Of a stretch of 64,000 nucleotides of DNA, positions 35,735-44,029 are shown piece after piece. The DNA is from Candidatus Hinthialibacter antarcticus. Its GTDB lineage: Bacteria; Hinthialibacterota; Hinthialibacteria; Hinthialibacterales; Hinthialibacteraceae. Positions within the stretch are counted from its first letter, which is position 1, and each line of letters begins with the position of its first letter. The stretch spans positions 1 to 64,000 of the forward strand of contig JAVCCE010000066.1 in assembly GCA_030765645.1 (NCBI GenBank). Reading direction: 5' to 3'. The position numbers and the translations under genes are program-made. The notes below the pieces were generated by a model. That model saw nothing but the letters and a program-made list of their open reading frames with translations. It was not told the DNA's origin and did no database searches.

Positions 35735-36805
35735 TCAGGTGGAGGGGTTCTTGTATTCAAGTTCTATCGGTTTGGTAAAAATCAAGCGGCCTGCTGAAGT
35801 TTGTAAAACCGAAGAAACATTTACATGTACATTCTGGCCGATTAATTTTTTGCCGTTCTCAACAACGATCATGGTTCCGTCATCCAGATAGCCGACGCCT
35901 TGGCTTGGCTCTTTTCCATCTTTTAAAACTTGAACTTGCAAATCGTCGCCCGGCATAACCACTGTTTTTAGAGATTGCGCCAGGAGGTTGATATTTAGCA
36001 CGCCTAGGTTTTCGATCTCGGCTACTTTGCTCAGATTGAAATCAAGGGTCAAAAGTGTGCCTTCATATTTTTTGGTCAGCGCGATGAGTTTTTTGTCGAC
36101 CTCTTGAAAATTAGGAAAATCTTCTTCCAAGACTTCAATACTGCCGTCTGCCGCGTTGAGTATTCGTTTTGAAATATCCAGCCCGCGGCGCCCTTTGCTA
36201 CGCTTATTATGGTCGCTCGAATCGGCCAGGGTTTGCAATTCATTTAAGACAAATCCCGGGATTACTAAATGTCCTTCAAGAAATCCGGCGTCTAGTAGTT
36301 CGGCGATTCGCCCGTCAATCAAAATGCTGGTGTCGATCATTTTGCTTCCATACAAGCGGTCTTCACTGCGCGCCAGCAATTTCGTCGCCGTGAAGTCAAA
36401 GCGATTGGCGTAACGCAAACCAGTGGTTACGCCGAAATACCCCAAGAACAGGTGCAGCACAAGACGAGTAAGATCGCGGGGAATAACGCCCAAACCGCTC
36501 GGCAGCGCCGCTTGAATCAACAAGGAAGCGGCGAGACCGCATGAAAGCCCAAGTAAGCCGAAGAACAGAGATTGCGGATAAAAATAGCGCACCTGGCTTT
36601 CGAGAATCACAAAGATCGTCGCAAACGAAAACCCAACCAGACAATAAACCCATAAGTCATTCTTGACGATAAAGGGGTTAATCGCCAACGCGAACGTGTA
36701 AATGATGTAGGTGAAGATAAAAACAAAAACGACCCGGACGCATACCAAAAATGGCGTGTCGCCGCTTTTCTCATTGGTGCTTTTGGGATTCTTGATATAA
36801 GTCAT
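35735..36805 (-). CDS. Integral membrane PIN-TRAM protein (YacL-like)
   Basis: This 356-residue protein has four membrane helices (about 20-135). A PIN nuclease-like domain (about 150-270) follows, with MIDTSILIDGRI, EVDKKLIALTKKY and TLDFNLSKVAEI. A C-terminal TRAM beta domain (about 285-345) has PSQGVGYLDDGTMIVVENG. PIN acids such as Asp in IDTS and TLDFN are retained, so RNase activity is plausible. YacL-type proteins often sit beside RadA/DisA and IspD, which matches the ATGA overlap with radA here. The physiological target is unknown. Confidence 0.92.
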   Translation of the reverse strand: MTYIKNPKSTNEKSGDTPFLVCVRVVFVFIFTYIIYTFALAINPFIVKNDLWVYCLVGFSFATIFVILESQVRYFYPQSLFFGLLGLSCGLAASLLIQAALPSGLGVIPRDLTRLVLHLFLGYFGVTTGLRYANRFDFTATKLLARSEDRLYGSKMIDTSILIDGRIAELLDAGFLEGHLVIPGFVLNELQTLADSSDHNKRSKGRRGLDISKRILNAADGSIEVLEEDFPNFQEVDKKLIALTKKYEGTLLTLDFNLSKVAEIENLGVLNINLLAQSLKTVVMPGDDLQVQVLKDGKEPSQGVGYLDDGTMIVVENGKKLIGQNVHVNVSSVLQTSAGRLIFTKPIELEYKNPST

Positions 36806-38190
36806 GATTGAAAAAATATGGTTTTCACTTCTTCTACCGTTTTAACCCGGTGACATCCATCCAATGAAACGCCTTGCCGCAGCATATCTTTTGCATTGAG
36901 TTCTGGCAACGCGCCGCCAGTGTAGCCTAATTGTCTCGCCTCGCGCAAGCGATGTTCCGCGCCCGGGGCGGGGCGAACTTCACCCGTGAGGCCGATCTCT
37001 CCAAACACAATGGTGTGTGGAGGGACGGGGGTTTCAAAATAACTGGAAAGTATCGCGGCGGCAATCCCCAAGTCGCCTGCGGGTTCTTTCAAATCAACGC
37101 CGCCTGTTACATTCACAAATATATCACGGTTTCCCAATTGAATCGACAAGCGTTTTTCCAACACCGCCAAAATCATTGCCAGACGGTTATTGTCTACGCC
37201 CGATGAAGCGCGGCGGGGAAACCCATGTCCATGAAACGGCGCCGCCAGAGCCTGCACTTCAATCAACAGCGGGCGGGCGCCTTCCATGATGGCGGTGACT
37301 GCTGTGCCCGCAGCGCGTTCGCCCGCAGGGCCGCAAAACACTGACGCGGGGTTCGCGACCTGGTGCAGCCCCGTCCCCGCCATTTCAAACACGCCGACTT
37401 CATGCGCTGCGCCAAAACGGTTTTTTACGCCTCGCAAAAGACGGTATAACTGATGCACGTCGCCTTCAAAATACAACACGACGTCAACCAGGTGTTCCAA
37501 CACGCGCGGCCCGGCGATTTGTCCTTCTTTGGTGACATGACCCACCAGGATGATCGGCGTATCGGTCTCTTTTGCCAGTCGAATCAAAAGCGACGCGCAG
37601 TCGCGCACTTGCGCAACGCTGCCCGGCGAGGACGATAGTTCCGCCCAAGAGGTCGTCTGAATCGAATCAACAATAGCGAGAAAGGGTTTAATCTCTCGTA
37701 TCGACTCGATCATCGCCTCAACGCGAGTCTCAGGTTTAATCAAAAGTTCTGGCGCTTTGGCGCCCAAGCGATCAGCGCGCAGTTTGATTTGCGCGGGCGA
37801 TTCTTCTCCGCTGATATAAAGCACCCGACCATATTGGTTGCTGATTTGTTCGGCGATTTGCAGCAGTAGCGTCGATTTGCCGATGCCAGGTTCACCGCCG
37901 AGCAGCATGGTGGCGCCGGGTAATACGCCGCCGCCCAAAACGCGATCAACTTCTGAAAATCCGGTGGTGATGCGCTGGCTTTGCTCGGTCGAAATTTCGG
38001 ATAACGCGAGTGGTTTTTGATTGTTGGCTTGAATATTCAGCGTTTGTTCGCGCGCATCCGGTTGATGCGCGGTTTCTTCGACGGCGGTGTTCCATTCGCC
38101 GCAGGCGGGGCAACGCCCAAACCATTTTGATTGGGAATGCCCGCACTCTTGGCAGGCATGAATAGATTTTGATTTCGATTGCGCCATCAT
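36802..38190 (-). CDS. radA: DNA repair protein RadA (Sms)
   Basis: This 462-residue RadA has an N-terminal C4 zinc finger (CQECGHSQSKWFGRCPACGEWNT), a RecA-like ATPase with Walker A GGEPGIGKSTL, and the RadA-specific KNRFG loop (GVKNRFGAAHEVG). A C-terminal Lon-protease-like ring domain has AGDLGIAAAILSS and FGEIGLTGEVRP. It promotes branch migration in recombination. Its start is MMAQSK at 38190, close behind mlaD (4 bases). The downstream PIN-TRAM gene overlaps by four bases. Confidence 0.96.
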   Translation of the reverse strand: MMAQSKSKSIHACQECGHSQSKWFGRCPACGEWNTAVEETAHQPDAREQTLNIQANNQKPLALSEISTEQSQRITTGFSEVDRVLGGGVLPGATMLLGGEPGIGKSTLLLQIAEQISNQYGRVLYISGEESPAQIKLRADRLGAKAPELLIKPETRVEAMIESIREIKPFLAIVDSIQTTSWAELSSSPGSVAQVRDCASLLIRLAKETDTPIILVGHVTKEGQIAGPRVLEHLVDVVLYFEGDVHQLYRLLRGVKNRFGAAHEVGVFEMAGTGLHQVANPASVFCGPAGERAAGTAVTAIMEGARPLLIEVQALAAPFHGHGFPRRASSGVDNNRLAMILAVLEKRLSIQLGNRDIFVNVTGGVDLKEPAGDLGIAAAILSSYFETPVPPHTIVFGEIGLTGEVRPAPGAEHRLREARQLGYTGGALPELNAKDMLRQGVSLDGCHRVKTVEEVKTIFFQS

Positions 38191-38194
38191 CGGC

Positions 38195-39700
38195 CTAGAA
38201 TTGAACTTTCATCCCGAGGTTCGGGTATAACTCATCAGTGATGTCTTGTACGCCGCCTTTGAGATAGAGATTTTCCCAAATCAAATACTCGGCGTAGAGA
38301 TCTAAGCGCGCTTGATCTCCATCGGTAACGCCAACGCCTTCCATACCGAGCAGAAGGCGCTCGAGCGCTTGCCAATTTATGCCGCCCGCCAGTTCCGTCT
38401 CAATTAAACCACCGTAAAACGTGAATGCGCCGTATTGATATCCGGCGAGCACTTCGATGCCTTCATGGGAGCCTAAATTATTCCCGCCGCCGTATACATA
38501 AAATGAATCGGTGAGGTCAAACTGCACCCCCATATCGGCGCGTAAGAAAGAATCGTCTGGATCAAAGCGTCCCTCATCAGGGAAATACAACAGTTCCGCA
38601 TTGAATGAAAAGCGATCTGGTACGGAAGAGATGTTCGACAAAACGCCTGAGACTTCTGTTATGGTTGATTTCGCCGCCTGCGCCATTTCGCGGTCATAGA
38701 TCAAGGTTCCAATCAGCCCGCCTTCGCCTTTGATGTCATCGATCAGAAGGTTCACTTTTTGAGAGGCTTTTTTAGCTTCTTCAGTAAACTCGGTCACATT
38801 GGTGAAGGCCAGATCGAGGTTGTCGCGGTTTGAGTCAATCACGTTCTCCATCTTGGCAATCAACGTATCCGCTCGTTCAATGGCGCCGTTTAATTTGGCT
38901 GAAAATTCACTCAGGTTTTTTGTGATAGCCGGTAAATCATCTTTTAAGGGAGCGCGAAGCGAATCGGTAATTTCCGCCGTATGTTTAAACGTCGCTTTGA
39001 AATCGGAGCGCACTTCCTGCGACATACTTCGCATGTCCGAAACAAATAGTTCCGCTGTTGCCATCATGCTGCGTAGATCGTCTGACGCTGCCGCCGCATT
39101 CGCAAGAATCGTTTGTAAGCGCGCTTGTTCGCCGCCAAGTAATTTATTAATATTCGATGAAAAATCTTCCAAATTCTCAATCAATTGGACCATGTTTTTT
39201 TGCATGGTTACATCGCCAAAAATCACGTTCAGCCCTTGTACGGTTTCACGCACTTCTTCGGTCAATTGCACCGCGTTTTCGATGACTTGGTCGATTGCGT
39301 AGGGGCTTTGTCCTTTAATCTTCGCCCCGGGTTCTGCGAGTTCGCCGTTGCCGTACGAAATTTCAATGTATTGCTCGTTACCGACCATCCCCATCGGTTT
39401 AATCGAGGCGATTGAATTGGTCGTAATCAAGGCTTTGGCGTTTAAACTAACCTCAACCACGGTGAAAACTTGCATGGTGGGTTCTTTGATGATCTCGCGC
39501 GCAATGTTGGCGACTTCCCCCACATTGATGCCAGATTGATACACTGGCGAGCGTTCTTCGAGAGTTTGAATTTTATCAAAGTATAAATAATAGGGCTGGC
39601 TTTCGCCTTTATATAAAAACACGCCCATGTTGATCGTGAAAAAAAAGAACACGGCAAACACCGCTAGAACGAACAATCCGAGTTTCGCTTCTTTACTCAT
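38195..39700 (-). CDS. mlaD: MlaD-like MCE protein with C-terminal outer-membrane-barrel-like domain
   Basis: This 501-residue protein has one N-terminal membrane helix (about 7-28) and a single MCE domain (about 35-120, RSPVYQSGINVGEVANI and IKPMGMVGNEQYIEI). A long helical region (about 130-345) follows. The last 140 residues form an amphipathic beta region (YVYGGGNN, VLAGYQYGAFTFYGGL, LYLKGGVQD) ending in terminal Phe. E. coli MlaD is about 183 residues and lacks the last two parts. The layout matches the trans-envelope MlaD of Veillonella, where the barrel sits in the outer membrane. mlaF and mlaE precede it, and mlaA/B/C are absent from the window. Confidence 0.9.
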   Translation of the reverse strand: MSKEAKLGLFVLAVFAVFFFFTINMGVFLYKGESQPYYLYFDKIQTLEERSPVYQSGINVGEVANIAREIIKEPTMQVFTVVEVSLNAKALITTNSIASIKPMGMVGNEQYIEISYGNGELAEPGAKIKGQSPYAIDQVIENAVQLTEEVRETVQGLNVIFGDVTMQKNMVQLIENLEDFSSNINKLLGGEQARLQTILANAAAASDDLRSMMATAELFVSDMRSMSQEVRSDFKATFKHTAEITDSLRAPLKDDLPAITKNLSEFSAKLNGAIERADTLIAKMENVIDSNRDNLDLAFTNVTEFTEEAKKASQKVNLLIDDIKGEGGLIGTLIYDREMAQAAKSTITEVSGVLSNISSVPDRFSFNAELLYFPDEGRFDPDDSFLRADMGVQFDLTDSFYVYGGGNNLGSHEGIEVLAGYQYGAFTFYGGLIETELAGGINWQALERLLLGMEGVGVTDGDQARLDLYAEYLIWENLYLKGGVQDITDELYPNLGMKVQF

Positions 39701-39720
39701 GTTTGGTTCCCATGCTCCTG

Positions 39721-40488
39721 TTATAGATTTGACAGCGGGCCGTCTGAACGACCATTGATGAACTGGCTAATGATGGGGTGATCGGTTTGCTGCGTTTCCT
39801 CTGCAGTTCCGGTGTAAATGATCTCGCCTTGAAACAGCATTGAAATTTTCGAAGCAATTTTAAATGCGCTGGCCATATCGTGGGTAATCACCACGGAGGT
39901 CAGATTGAGCGATTCCGCCAAGTGGTTAATCAATTCATTGATGGCGTCCGATGTGACCGGATCAAGCCCCGTCGTTGGTTCATCATACAAGAGAATTTTG
40001 GGGTTCTGTATGATTGACCGCGCTAGCCCGACCCGCTTTTTCATTCCGCCGGAAAGTTCAGACGGCATTTTGTCGAGAATGTCGCCCAAACGCACCATTT
40101 TTAATGTCTTTATGACGCGTTCACGAATTTCGTCTTCCGGTTTTTTTTGTTCAAACAGGGTGAAGCCAACATTGTGCAATACATCCAATGAGTCAAACAA
40201 CGCGGCGTATTGAAATAACAATCCAACCTTGTTCCTTAATCCGTTCAACTTGGATTCAGGCGCTTTCGATATTTCTTCGCCGTCAACCAAAACATTTCCT
40301 TTGTCCGGCTGCATCAGGCGGCAGATGTGTTTAATCAAGACGCTCTTGCCTTCGCCGCTGCGTCCCATGATGACGCGGGTTTCTCCCGGCTCGATTTCGA
40401 GACAGGTTTTGTTTAAGATTTGTTTGCCGCCCAGCCGTTTATAAACGTCTTTCAGCTGGATCATATATTGGTTCGTTTGCGTATTCAT
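39721..40488 (-). CDS. mlaF: Mla ABC transporter ATPase MlaF
   Basis: This 255-residue ABC ATPase has Walker A GRSGEGKSVL, a Q-loop (LLFQYAALFDSL, the MlaF-typical form) and signature LSGGMKKRVGLARSI. Walker B is ILLYDEPTTGLDP and the H-loop is VVITHDM. It powers lipid movement through MlaE into or out of the MCE ring. It overlaps mlaE by four bases and lies 20 bases before mlaD, a standard E-F-D order. No MlaB-type STAS gene is adjacent, though MlaF usually binds MlaB. Confidence 0.95.
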   Translation of the reverse strand: MNTQTNQYMIQLKDVYKRLGGKQILNKTCLEIEPGETRVIMGRSGEGKSVLIKHICRLMQPDKGNVLVDGEEISKAPESKLNGLRNKVGLLFQYAALFDSLDVLHNVGFTLFEQKKPEDEIRERVIKTLKMVRLGDILDKMPSELSGGMKKRVGLARSIIQNPKILLYDEPTTGLDPVTSDAINELINHLAESLNLTSVVITHDMASAFKIASKISMLFQGEIIYTGTAEETQQTDHPIISQFINGRSDGPLSNL

Positions 40489-41306
40489 GGAATAATTTGA
40501 ATGATCCAGGATGTCAAGAAAAAGTTTGCGACAAGAATCAAAATCGAAGACGTGACCACAGCGCTGGTGGTCGATTCGCCGACGCCTTGCGCTCCAAAGC
40601 CGGTTTCAAATCCTTTTTGGCACCCAACAATGGCTACGATCATCCCAAAGAAAATGGTTTTGATTAGTCCGCTCAAGTAATCTTCAAACCGCAAGAAACT
40701 CCACATATTGGCGTCATATTGGCCGTAGGGGATATTCAAAACCGTGATTCCAACGATGTATCCCCCGCCGATGCCGACGCCAATCGCCAGCACCGCCAGA
40801 GCAGGGAACATGATGGTGGCGGCGATAAAACGCGGGACGACGAGGTAATCAACCGGGTCCGTACCGAGCGTCTTCATCGCGTCAATTTGTTCGGTGACTT
40901 TCATGGTGCCGATTTCCGCTGCGATGCCGGCGGCCACGCGGCCTGCGAGTACCACCGAAGTCAACACCGGGCCGATCTCACGGGCGAAACTGATGGCGGA
41001 GATGCCGCTGGCGTAGACCTTCATGCCGAGCGGTTTGAGTTGCATCCCGGTTTGCAATACCAGCACCATGCCCGTAAACGCAGAGGTCAGCAGCGCAATC
41101 GGGATCGACATAATGCCGATCTGGATCATCTGGTCGACCGTGAGACGAATACGAAACGGAGGCCGAAACGTCAACTGAATCGTTCGGACGAATAAATAAA
41201 ACATACGCCCGGCGGCTTCAAACGTATCAACCGTTTGGCGGCCAATGCGACTTAAAAACGTATCTGCCTGTTGTTCAAGAGTACAGTCAAGCGATTTTTT
41301 ATTCAT
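40485..41306 (-). CDS. mlaE: Mla ABC transporter permease MlaE
   Basis: This 273-residue MlaE/YrbE permease has about five membrane helices. It has the family motif QMIQIGIMSIPIALLTSAFTGMVLVLQ. EIGPVLTSVVLAGRVAAGIAAEIGTMKVTEQIDAM, the coupling-helix region, is split here only for description. The stop overlaps the mlaF start (ATGA). It begins 15 bases after trxB ends. With MlaF and the long MlaD it should form a complete inner-membrane phospholipid transporter. Confidence 0.95.
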   Translation of the reverse strand: MNKKSLDCTLEQQADTFLSRIGRQTVDTFEAAGRMFYLFVRTIQLTFRPPFRIRLTVDQMIQIGIMSIPIALLTSAFTGMVLVLQTGMQLKPLGMKVYASGISAISFAREIGPVLTSVVLAGRVAAGIAAEIGTMKVTEQIDAMKTLGTDPVDYLVVPRFIAATIMFPALAVLAIGVGIGGGYIVGITVLNIPYGQYDANMWSFLRFEDYLSGLIKTIFFGMIVAIVGCQKGFETGFGAQGVGESTTSAVVTSSILILVANFFLTSWIIQIIP

Positions 41307-41321
41307 AAACGTATCGTTTTT

Positions 41322-42284
41322 TTAGTTAGCCGCTGTTGTTTTTTTGTGAGCAATCTTAAATTCATCAACGTGCTTGGTTGCCGCAATCGCAGCCGTCACG
41401 CCGTCGCCTGCGGAACTCGCCAATTGCCGCGCCGCTTCGGTACGGCAATCACCGCAAGCGTATATGCCCGTCATTGACGTTTTCATCCAGAGGTCAACGT
41501 CGATCAAATTGTGCTCATCCATTTTTAGCATGTCTTTGACCAGCGTTGTATTGGGAACGTGACCGACAAAAATGAAAACGCCCTGCGTTTCAAAATCGCT
41601 GGTTTCGTCTGTTTTCAGGTTGCGAAGTTTAACGGATTTCACCACGCCTTCGCTGACAATTTCTTCAACGGCGGAATCCCAAATGAAGTCAATTTTATCA
41701 TTATCAAAGGCGCGTTCTTGCAATACTTTGGTTGCGCGCAATTCATCTCGACGGTGAATAATCGTCACGGACGACGCATAGCGGGTAAGGAACAAGCCTT
41801 CTTCCACCGCCGCATCGCCGCCGCCGACGACCACCACTTTTTTCTCACGGAAAAAAGCGCCGTCGCAAGTCGCGCAATACGAGACGCCGGTTCCGACGTT
41901 TTTCTCTTCGCCAGGGACGCCCAGCTTACGTGGGTCGGCGCCCATTGCGCAAATGACGGTGATTGCGGTCAAATCATGGCGTCCGTCCATAACAACTGTG
42001 AAGGTTTCATCATCATTTTTACGAATTTCCGTCACGGTACCGTTCTTAATGACGGCGCCGAATTTTTCTGCTTGTTTTTGGAAGCGGTCTGACAAACCGG
42101 GGCCGGTTTCAGGCTCAGGGAAGCCTGGATAATTTTCGACGGCTTCCGTCGTCGCGATTTGACCGCCTGTCGGGCCTTTTTCAATGACTAAAGTAGAAAG
42201 GTTTCCTCGTGACGTGTACAACGCCGCCGCCATACCGGCTGGTCCGGCGCCAACAATAATCGTATCCCACTTTGTTTGGTCCAT
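41322..42284 (-). CDS. trxB: Thioredoxin reductase
   Basis: This 320-residue flavoenzyme has FAD motif IIVGAGPAGMAAALYTSR, redox-active CATC in SYCATCDGAFF and NADPH motif VVVGGGDAAVEEGLFL. The C-terminal FAD motif is GIYACGDCRTEAARQLASSAGDG. It reduces thioredoxin with NADPH. It heads the minus-strand run trxB-mlaEFD-radA-PIN/TRAM-GT2. A pair of catalytic cysteines and normal length show a functional enzyme. The promoter should lie in the 155-base gap to the divergent gene at 42440. Confidence 0.95.
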   Translation of the reverse strand: MDQTKWDTIIVGAGPAGMAAALYTSRGNLSTLVIEKGPTGGQIATTEAVENYPGFPEPETGPGLSDRFQKQAEKFGAVIKNGTVTEIRKNDDETFTVVMDGRHDLTAITVICAMGADPRKLGVPGEEKNVGTGVSYCATCDGAFFREKKVVVVGGGDAAVEEGLFLTRYASSVTIIHRRDELRATKVLQERAFDNDKIDFIWDSAVEEIVSEGVVKSVKLRNLKTDETSDFETQGVFIFVGHVPNTTLVKDMLKMDEHNLIDVDLWMKTSMTGIYACGDCRTEAARQLASSAGDGVTAAIAATKHVDEFKIAHKKTTAAN

Positions 42285-42439: not shown

Positions 42440-44029
42440 ATGGGGGCGATGATGAATAAACTCATATATTTATGCTTGTTTCTTATTGTTTTCACCAATC
42501 ACTCACAATCGGAAAATTCATTTATTGAGGCGCAAAATAATGGCTGGAAAGCACAAAAAGCCTTCCAACACTGCTACCTCTATCTGAACGGCTGGCTGGG
42601 ACACCGCGACCCGGTTTCGGGCTTGATCCCCCGGAACTTAACCCGATCACATTTTTGGAACGCGCAAGATTCCGCTGCGGACAATTATCCGTTTATGGTA
42701 TTAACCGCCTCAATGCTCGACCATGACCGCTTTGAAGGCGTTTTGCTCGATATGTTGCACACGGAGATTCTATTAACCAACCGTCTTGATAATCTGCCCG
42801 ACGATTTTGATTTTTCTACGCAGACGTTCCGAAAGAGCAAGCCGGATTTGCGGAGCCTCATCTTTGGCGGCTCGGAGTACGTGAAAGACGGGCTCATTCC
42901 ATTGACCGAATGGCTCGGGCCGAGCGAGTGGGCCGACCGCATGATCGGCATTCAAGAATCCATCTGGAAATACGCCTCTATCCAAACCCGGTATGGGACA
43001 ATCCCATCCGAAGATTTCGAGATCAATGGAGAACAGCTCCAAGTGCTTTGCCGTTTGTATTGGATGACGGGAGACCAGCGCTACCAGGAATGGGCATTCC
43101 GCATCGCCGATTATTACCTGCTGGGAAAATCACCGATAGACGGCGTTCGCCTGAGCCTAGACGATCATGGTTGCGAAATCATCAGTGGGTTGGCGGGCGC
43201 CTATTACCTTTCCGCAAAGACTGACCCGGCGCGGCGTGAACGCTATCAACCCGCAATGAAGCAGATGATAGACCGTATTCTAGACATCGCGACCAACGAC
43301 GATGGCTTGTTCTATATGACCGTGAATCCCCAATCGGGCAAAGTGCTCAACGATGAATTAACCGACAACTGGGGCTATGACTACAACGCCGTATTAAATG
43401 TGGGAACCCTGGACGATAACGCTGACTATATTGACGCGGTCAAACATGTCCTTGAGCGCATCGAAGGCTATGTTCATTACCCGTGGGAAAACGGCGGCGC
43501 TGACGGCTACGCGGATTCCATCGAAGGCGGCCTTAATCTGTTAAACCGACTTCCCAATGAAAAAGGCTTTCAATGGGTGGATGATAGCATGGAAATCCTC
43601 ATGGCCAAACAACGGCCTGACGGCGTGATTGAAGGGTGGCATGGCGACGGCAACTTTACCCGTACCACCTTGATGTATGCGCTTTGGAAAACGCAGGGCG
43701 TTCGATTGGAGCCCTGGCGAGCCGACTTGGCGTTTGGCGCCGTAGAAAAGAATGGCGTGTTATATATTGCCATCCAAAGCGATTGGCCTTGGCGCGGCAA
43801 AATCCTGTTTGACCGCCCTCGTCATCGCGATTATTTCAATTTGCCAAGCGATTATCCGCGAATTAACCAGTTCCCTGAATGGTACACGGTTGACGAAAAA
43901 TCAGACTATGCGATGAAGTTGAATCACTCAAATGCGGTCAATCTGTCGGGCGAAAATCTCCTTCAGGGAACGCGCATCGAAACGGATGGCGCGACGCCGC
44001 TATTCATCCAAATAGACAAGATTAAGTAA
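42440..44029 (+). CDS. Secreted alpha/alpha-barrel (six-hairpin glycosidase-like) protein
   Basis: This protein of up to 529 residues has a Sec signal (MNKLIYLCLFLIVFTNHSQS). It has repeated helix-hairpin features typical of (alpha/alpha)6 barrels: LYLNGWLGHRDP, QVLCRLYWMTGDQRYQEWAFRIADYYL in pieces, GYDYNAVLNVG and GYADSIEGGLNLLNR. Aromatic and acidic residues in these loops suggest a glycan-binding cleft. I cannot name a specific glycoside hydrolase family or catalytic pair. The true start may be ATG at 42449 or 42452, which gives a tidier signal. It stands alone. Confidence 0.75.
   Translation: MGAMMNKLIYLCLFLIVFTNHSQSENSFIEAQNNGWKAQKAFQHCYLYLNGWLGHRDPVSGLIPRNLTRSHFWNAQDSAADNYPFMVLTASMLDHDRFEGVLLDMLHTEILLTNRLDNLPDDFDFSTQTFRKSKPDLRSLIFGGSEYVKDGLIPLTEWLGPSEWADRMIGIQESIWKYASIQTRYGTIPSEDFEINGEQLQVLCRLYWMTGDQRYQEWAFRIADYYLLGKSPIDGVRLSLDDHGCEIISGLAGAYYLSAKTDPARRERYQPAMKQMIDRILDIATNDDGLFYMTVNPQSGKVLNDELTDNWGYDYNAVLNVGTLDDNADYIDAVKHVLERIEGYVHYPWENGGADGYADSIEGGLNLLNRLPNEKGFQWVDDSMEILMAKQRPDGVIEGWHGDGNFTRTTLMYALWKTQGVRLEPWRADLAFGAVEKNGVLYIAIQSDWPWRGKILFDRPRHRDYFNLPSDYPRINQFPEWYTVDEKSDYAMKLNHSNAVNLSGENLLQGTRIETDGATPLFIQIDKIK

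Follow-up and report, generated by a model that had tools for sequence, protein, structure and literature searches.

A probable three-component lipid transporter, MlaEFD, with a predicted trans-envelope MlaD in Candidatus Hinthialibacterota

Introduction

Can three proteins suffice to move lipids between the two membranes of a diderm bacterium? The question is raised by an mlaE, mlaF, mlaD operon of Candidatus Hinthialibacter antarcticus, which lies in a 64,000-nucleotide stretch of contig JAVCCE010000066.1 (here called the window, at its full length) and encodes a long MlaD that may reach from one membrane to the other. A trans-envelope MlaEFD has been described for Veillonella parvula (Grasekamp et al. 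2023, PMC10665443), where the barrel of MlaD has ten strands; the same study reported barrel MlaD to be missing from the PVC and FCB groups. The design, published in 2023 and widespread, is not new, and the present locus is a further example in a little-studied candidate phylum. The OLB16/SURF_12 lineage had been misclassified as Omnitrophica (Seymour et al. 2023, PMC10066038), and OLB16 corresponds to Candidatus Hinthialibacterota (PMC11382960); on these two sources, Omnitrophota was rejected as the host phylum. Isolate SURF_12 belongs to the same family as the window.

Results and Discussion

An ORF check of the locus at 38195-41306 gave the minus-strand gene order trxB-mlaE-mlaF-mlaD-radA, with a 4-base overlap between mlaF and mlaE (Table 1). 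The preliminary description of this DNA, which was made from the sequence alone, had located the three mla genes correctly in both coordinates and strand, and Pfam confirmed their families; it had also reported the operon to lack MlaB, in agreement with the absence of any STAS match in Pfam among the operon proteins and their immediate neighbours. In NCBIfam, model PRK11831 (MlaF) ranks second-best for MlaF and falls below its own cut-off. Neither tolC nor tamB adjoins the operon.

Throughout the family, as far as contigs reach, synteny extends over genes for a TPR protein, a GH-like protein, trxB, mlaE, mlaF, mlaD, radA, a PIN-TRAM protein and a glycosyltransferase. The trxB and radA-like genes are probably not part of the transport system. 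Beside trxB, at 42440-44029 of the window, lies a gene for a conserved 529-residue protein with a weak match to glycosyl hydrolase 76 and 60-67% identity to its counterparts in sister genera.

Table 1. Location of the operon, of the parts of MlaD and of related loci. Plain coordinates are those of the window.
Feature	Location	Strand	Evidence
mlaE, ABC-type lipid permease, 273 aa	40485..41306	(-)	PF02405 260 bits, E=2e-77; TIGR00056 above cut-off
mlaF, ABC ATPase, 255 aa	39721..40488	(-)	ABC_tran PF00005 113 bits
mlaD, long MCE protein, 501 aa	38195..39700	(-)	PF02470 46 bits, above cut-off; full-length conservation in class
MlaD inner-membrane helix, ~residues 7-29	39614..39682	(-)	hydropathy; helix in model, pLDDT about 80
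MlaD MCE domain, residues 34-117	39350..39601	(-)	PF02470
MlaD helical shaft, ~residues 134-358	38627..39301	(-)	AF2 helices, low confidence; hydrophobic periodicity
MlaD C-terminal ten-strand barrel (predicted), residues 364-501, terminal Phe	38198..38611	(-)	AF2, amphipathicity, Foldseek
trxB, thioredoxin reductase, conserved upstream neighbour	41322..42284	(-)	PF07992; synteny
radA-like gene, conserved downstream neighbour	36802..38190	(-)	Pfam domains; synteny
TolC-type outer-membrane efflux protein and MlaE2, same genome	G000:C4 (L053:4335-6611)		
MlaF2 and MlaD2, same genome	G000:C76 (L043:7278-9301)		
MlaD2, 363 aa	G000:C76, L043:8210-9301		
MlaA and hydrolase-like partner, sister genomes	L054:4445-6480, L055:5067-7201, L056:5069-7323		
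MlaA-partner fusion, 640-aa frame	L064, G012:C18	(-)	

MlaD has the make-up of a long MlaD, namely a transmembrane helix, a single MCE domain and an extended helical region. Its hydropathy peaks at 2.45 (19-residue mean) at residue 11, and the MCE domain, for which an HMM search had been proposed, is matched by PF02470 above cut-off. The best profile match is to PDB chain 13hr_I ("Mce/MlaD domain-containing protein", 312 aa, 8 chains; E=1.4e-23) and covers the MCE ring and the first half of the shaft. Within the shaft, hydrophobic residues recur with a heptad-like period of 3.53 residues (power 102, against 53 +/- 13 in shuffled sequences), as expected of long packed helices, and the approximately 225 helical residues would extend over roughly 34 nm if straight, which is sufficient for the periplasm.

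Since the single-sequence AlphaFold model of full-length MlaD was poor (pLDDT 39), the C-terminal domain (residues 326-501) was modelled separately by AF2 with 9 aligned homologues. This model (mean pLDDT 81.8, pTM 0.71, with pLDDT 87-96 in most strand blocks) consists of two helices and ten antiparallel strands, which comprise residues 364-372, 386-395, 400-406, 415-423, 426-433, 436-446, 449-456, 465-475, 478-485 and 492-500. The outcome is the barrel-like fold for which the preliminary description had recommended structure prediction, and the amphipathic strands and terminal Phe noted there are likewise borne out: the chain ends in ...LGMKVQF, and the mean hydropathy contrast between the two faces of the strands is 3.35, compared with 1.61 +/- 0.37 after shuffling inside each strand, and none of 5000 shuffles reached the observed value.

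Foldseek comparison with the PDB returned outer-membrane barrels for all eight matches at E<=0.001 (Rhodopseudomonas porin, OmpA, OprF, Ail), and the full list is made up almost wholly of outer-membrane barrels (porins, OmpA, OprF, Ail, OMPLA, KdgM and designed barrels), with exceptions that include two low-ranked thioesterase chains (3u0a). Designed transmembrane barrels gave the best geometry (ten-strand 8uzl, TM 0.56 by target, rmsd 4.7). Solved barrels are matched at moderate TM-scores, at best about 0.56-0.57 by target length, and many rmsd values are high. The domain as modelled is a membrane-type barrel of ten strands, and its closure is suggested by the strand number, the alternation of residues and the kind of structure that Foldseek matched. 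A sequence search of the PDB yielded no solved relative for the barrel part. Profile-profile comparison of the barrel in the window's family with the C-terminal domains of long MlaDs from eight genomes of other families gave a match with 98.4% probability (E=6.8e-15, 82 columns), and this match across unrelated families places the domain in a barrel family of wide distribution.

Full-length or near full-length MlaD homologues with the same domains are encoded by all 13 class-mates searched, so MlaD is not a chance ORF, and the fusion for which a survey of related genomes had been suggested is kept in every one of them. Identity is 44-59% in five genera of the same family, approximately 32% in three genomes of the order and approximately 19-28% in five further members of the class. 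Conservation extends to the C-terminal domain, where certain Gly, Arg and Asp residues are invariant; an aromatic residue ends the chain in nearly all of the close homologues. A scan of viral contigs for further MlaD homologues found none.

Neither MlaA nor MlaC was detected in the 5.15-Mb genome, as the preliminary description would require: the best Pfam matches, at 11.3 bits for MlaA and 12.6 bits for MlaC, are far below cut-off, although at 96.5% completeness this absence is not proof. Querying the same genome with MlaA of a sister genus also returned nothing, and an overlooked standard MlaA/MlaC pair was rejected on the basis of both searches. The genome does encode an Omp85/BamA protein (195 bits) and LptD (33.5 bits, cut-off 22.4); an LPS outer membrane and a barrel-insertion machine are therefore to be expected. 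The TamB family has no match in this genome; two of the five sister genera have one.

A second, scattered MCE set was located in the same genome, with MlaE2 on contig C4 and MlaF2 and MlaD2 together on C76 (Table 1). MlaE2 and MlaF2 share 36% and 41% identity with MlaE and MlaF of the window, respectively. MlaD2 resembles the window MlaD in its transmembrane helix, MCE domain and helical region but has no barrel and ends after the helices in a short proline-rich tail. Copies related to this set were seen in two of the compared genomes (G003 and G005).

Comparison with known systems

The preliminary description likened the locus to the Veillonella-type bridge, and at the level of architecture this likeness holds feature by feature, except in size and neighbours. 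In both organisms MlaE, MlaF and a long MlaD are encoded in one operon without MlaB, in the genome of an LPS diderm that has neither MlaA nor MlaC, and in both MlaD combines a transmembrane helix, one MCE domain, a long helical region and a ten-strand C-terminal barrel, the last at model level here. The V. parvula MlaD is shorter, however (419 residues, compared with 501), as is its shaft (approximately 150 residues, compared with approximately 225). The present locus further differs in that no tolC or tamB lies beside the operon and no TamB family match occurs in the genome, in the additional scattered MlaE/F/D set, and in its phylum.

With the Escherichia coli system (MlaFEDB, MlaC, MlaA) the homology extends to MlaE, MlaF and the MCE domain of MlaD, whereas the E. 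coli MlaD is short (183 residues, compared with 501) and transport there requires MlaC and MlaA, both absent here; the marks of a six-component proteobacterial Mla (MlaA and MlaC, and an MlaD of approximately 180 residues) are thus lacking. The mycobacterial Mce1 needle (8fed) shares an MCE ring and a helical needle with the window MlaD, and the two show profile matches. Mce1 is, however, a heterohexamer in which each chain gives one strand to a single small barrel (PMC10665443), whereas each MlaD chain of the window carries a whole barrel, at model level. Our data add the candidate phylum OLB16/Hinthialibacterota as a lineage with an intact, class-wide conserved and probably trans-envelope MlaD, and they accord with the proposed ancestral status of an MlaEFD that has a long MlaD.

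Proposed mechanism and alternatives

We consider it very likely that the operon encodes a lipid transporter of three components, MlaE, MlaF and a trans-envelope MlaD, of the V. parvula type. The moderate TM-scores, the poor full-length model, the MlaA that accompanies the same barrel in six sister genomes and the barrel-less MlaD2 elsewhere in the genome count against this assignment. A mechanism is proposed where MlaE and MlaF would form the inner-membrane ABC transporter and six MlaD chains would place an MCE ring upon MlaE. The long helices of MlaD could then bundle together as a hollow, periplasm-spanning shaft, with the ten-strand barrel of every chain anchored in the outer membrane, and phospholipids would travel inside the hydrophobic ring and shaft. 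MlaF would supply the power, most likely for transport out of the outer membrane and into the inner one, and neither MlaC as shuttle nor MlaA as outer-membrane extractor would be needed.

A variant of this mechanism, rather than its opposite, is that the barrel serves merely as an outer-membrane anchor while a separate partner hands the lipid over, MlaA in the sister genera and another protein here. A ten-strand barrel was stated to be too narrow for a phospholipid in the case of Veillonella (PMC10665443), and MlaA accompanies the barrel MlaD in six of the 13 class-mates, both of which would fit a mere anchor. Yet MlaA is found neither here nor in two other genera of the family and three order-mates, and MlaC hardly anywhere in the class, so that in those genomes the system must work without both; we regard the variant as a serious possibility, though one that we do not favour. 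Far less probable, in our judgement, is that the chain ends in a soluble beta domain or in hairpins that form an incomplete set, which is the case in most long MlaD proteins. No more than about 10% of MlaD sequences are predicted to have a barrel (PMC10665443), and barrel closure here rests on strand lists and Foldseek scores; the ten high-confidence strands with alternating faces, the conserved terminal Phe and the membrane barrels matched by Foldseek nevertheless speak for a membrane domain.

The cargo and its direction bear on a further alternative. Mycobacterial MCE systems take up fatty acids or cholesterol, MCE systems being known to differ in substrate, and the MlaD chain of the window shows weak matches, below cut-off, to Mce4_CUP1 and Mtu_fam_mce. 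The complex might accordingly handle another hydrophobic substrate or transport in the anterograde direction. We think this unlikely, as the permease clearly belongs to the MlaE family and the nearest characterized architecture, that of Veillonella, acts on glycerophospholipids (PMC10665443).

MlaA in sister genomes

The preliminary description also proposed that the lineage belongs to a minimal-Mla class. Apart from the second MlaE/F/D set, this stands for the genome of the window, which has no MlaA or MlaC, but not for the lineage as a whole: MlaA coexists with a barrel MlaD in three of the five sister genera within this family (G001, G002 and G003) and in three other members of the class (G009, G012 and G013). 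Contamination was judged an unlikely source of the MlaA in G001-G003, where the proteins are 59-62% identical between the three genera and share a conserved neighbour. Given this coexistence in six genomes, the barrel need not replace MlaA, and sister genera that have the same barrel MlaD and differ in MlaA offer a natural test of what MlaA contributes.

Among the MlaA-bearing genomes, MlaC occurs solely in G009. There, contig C572 (L057:4198-7709) carries a complete mlaE-mlaF-mlaD(short)-mlaC-mlaA cluster of proteobacterial type in addition to the barrel MlaD of the genome; at 7% contamination of this assembly, the origin of the cluster is open to doubt.

In G001-G003 mlaA either overlaps or directly adjoins a gene whose product has approximately 420 residues, and in G009 (contig C1218), G012 and G013 MlaA and this partner share a single open frame (Table 1). 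The partner, roughly 400 residues long across these genomes and encoded at L054:4445-5695 in one of them, has no Pfam match. Its motifs (G-x-S-x-G at residue 175, an upstream VIPGLN stretch and a C-terminal GGHLG) suggest a resemblance to alpha/beta hydrolases. The genome of the window lacks this partner as well as MlaA, and a literature search on an MlaA-hydrolase fusion gave nothing relevant; a phospholipase tied to MlaA would be unusual. Tentatively, and with less conviction than for any of the above save the alternatives of a different cargo or a soluble domain, we suggest that trans-envelope MlaD is the constant core throughout the class and no substitute for MlaA, which would have been gained or lost separately, usually without MlaC and coupled, by adjacency or fusion, to the serine-hydrolase-like protein. 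If so, MlaA and this protein would constitute an outer-membrane unit for phospholipid degradation that acts beside the MlaEFD bridge or feeds it.

The two genomes G012 and G013 also belong, together with G010, to one family in which MlaD is longer still, at approximately 600 residues, and carries an acidic tail of approximately 75 residues beyond the barrel (L017, L018 and L020).
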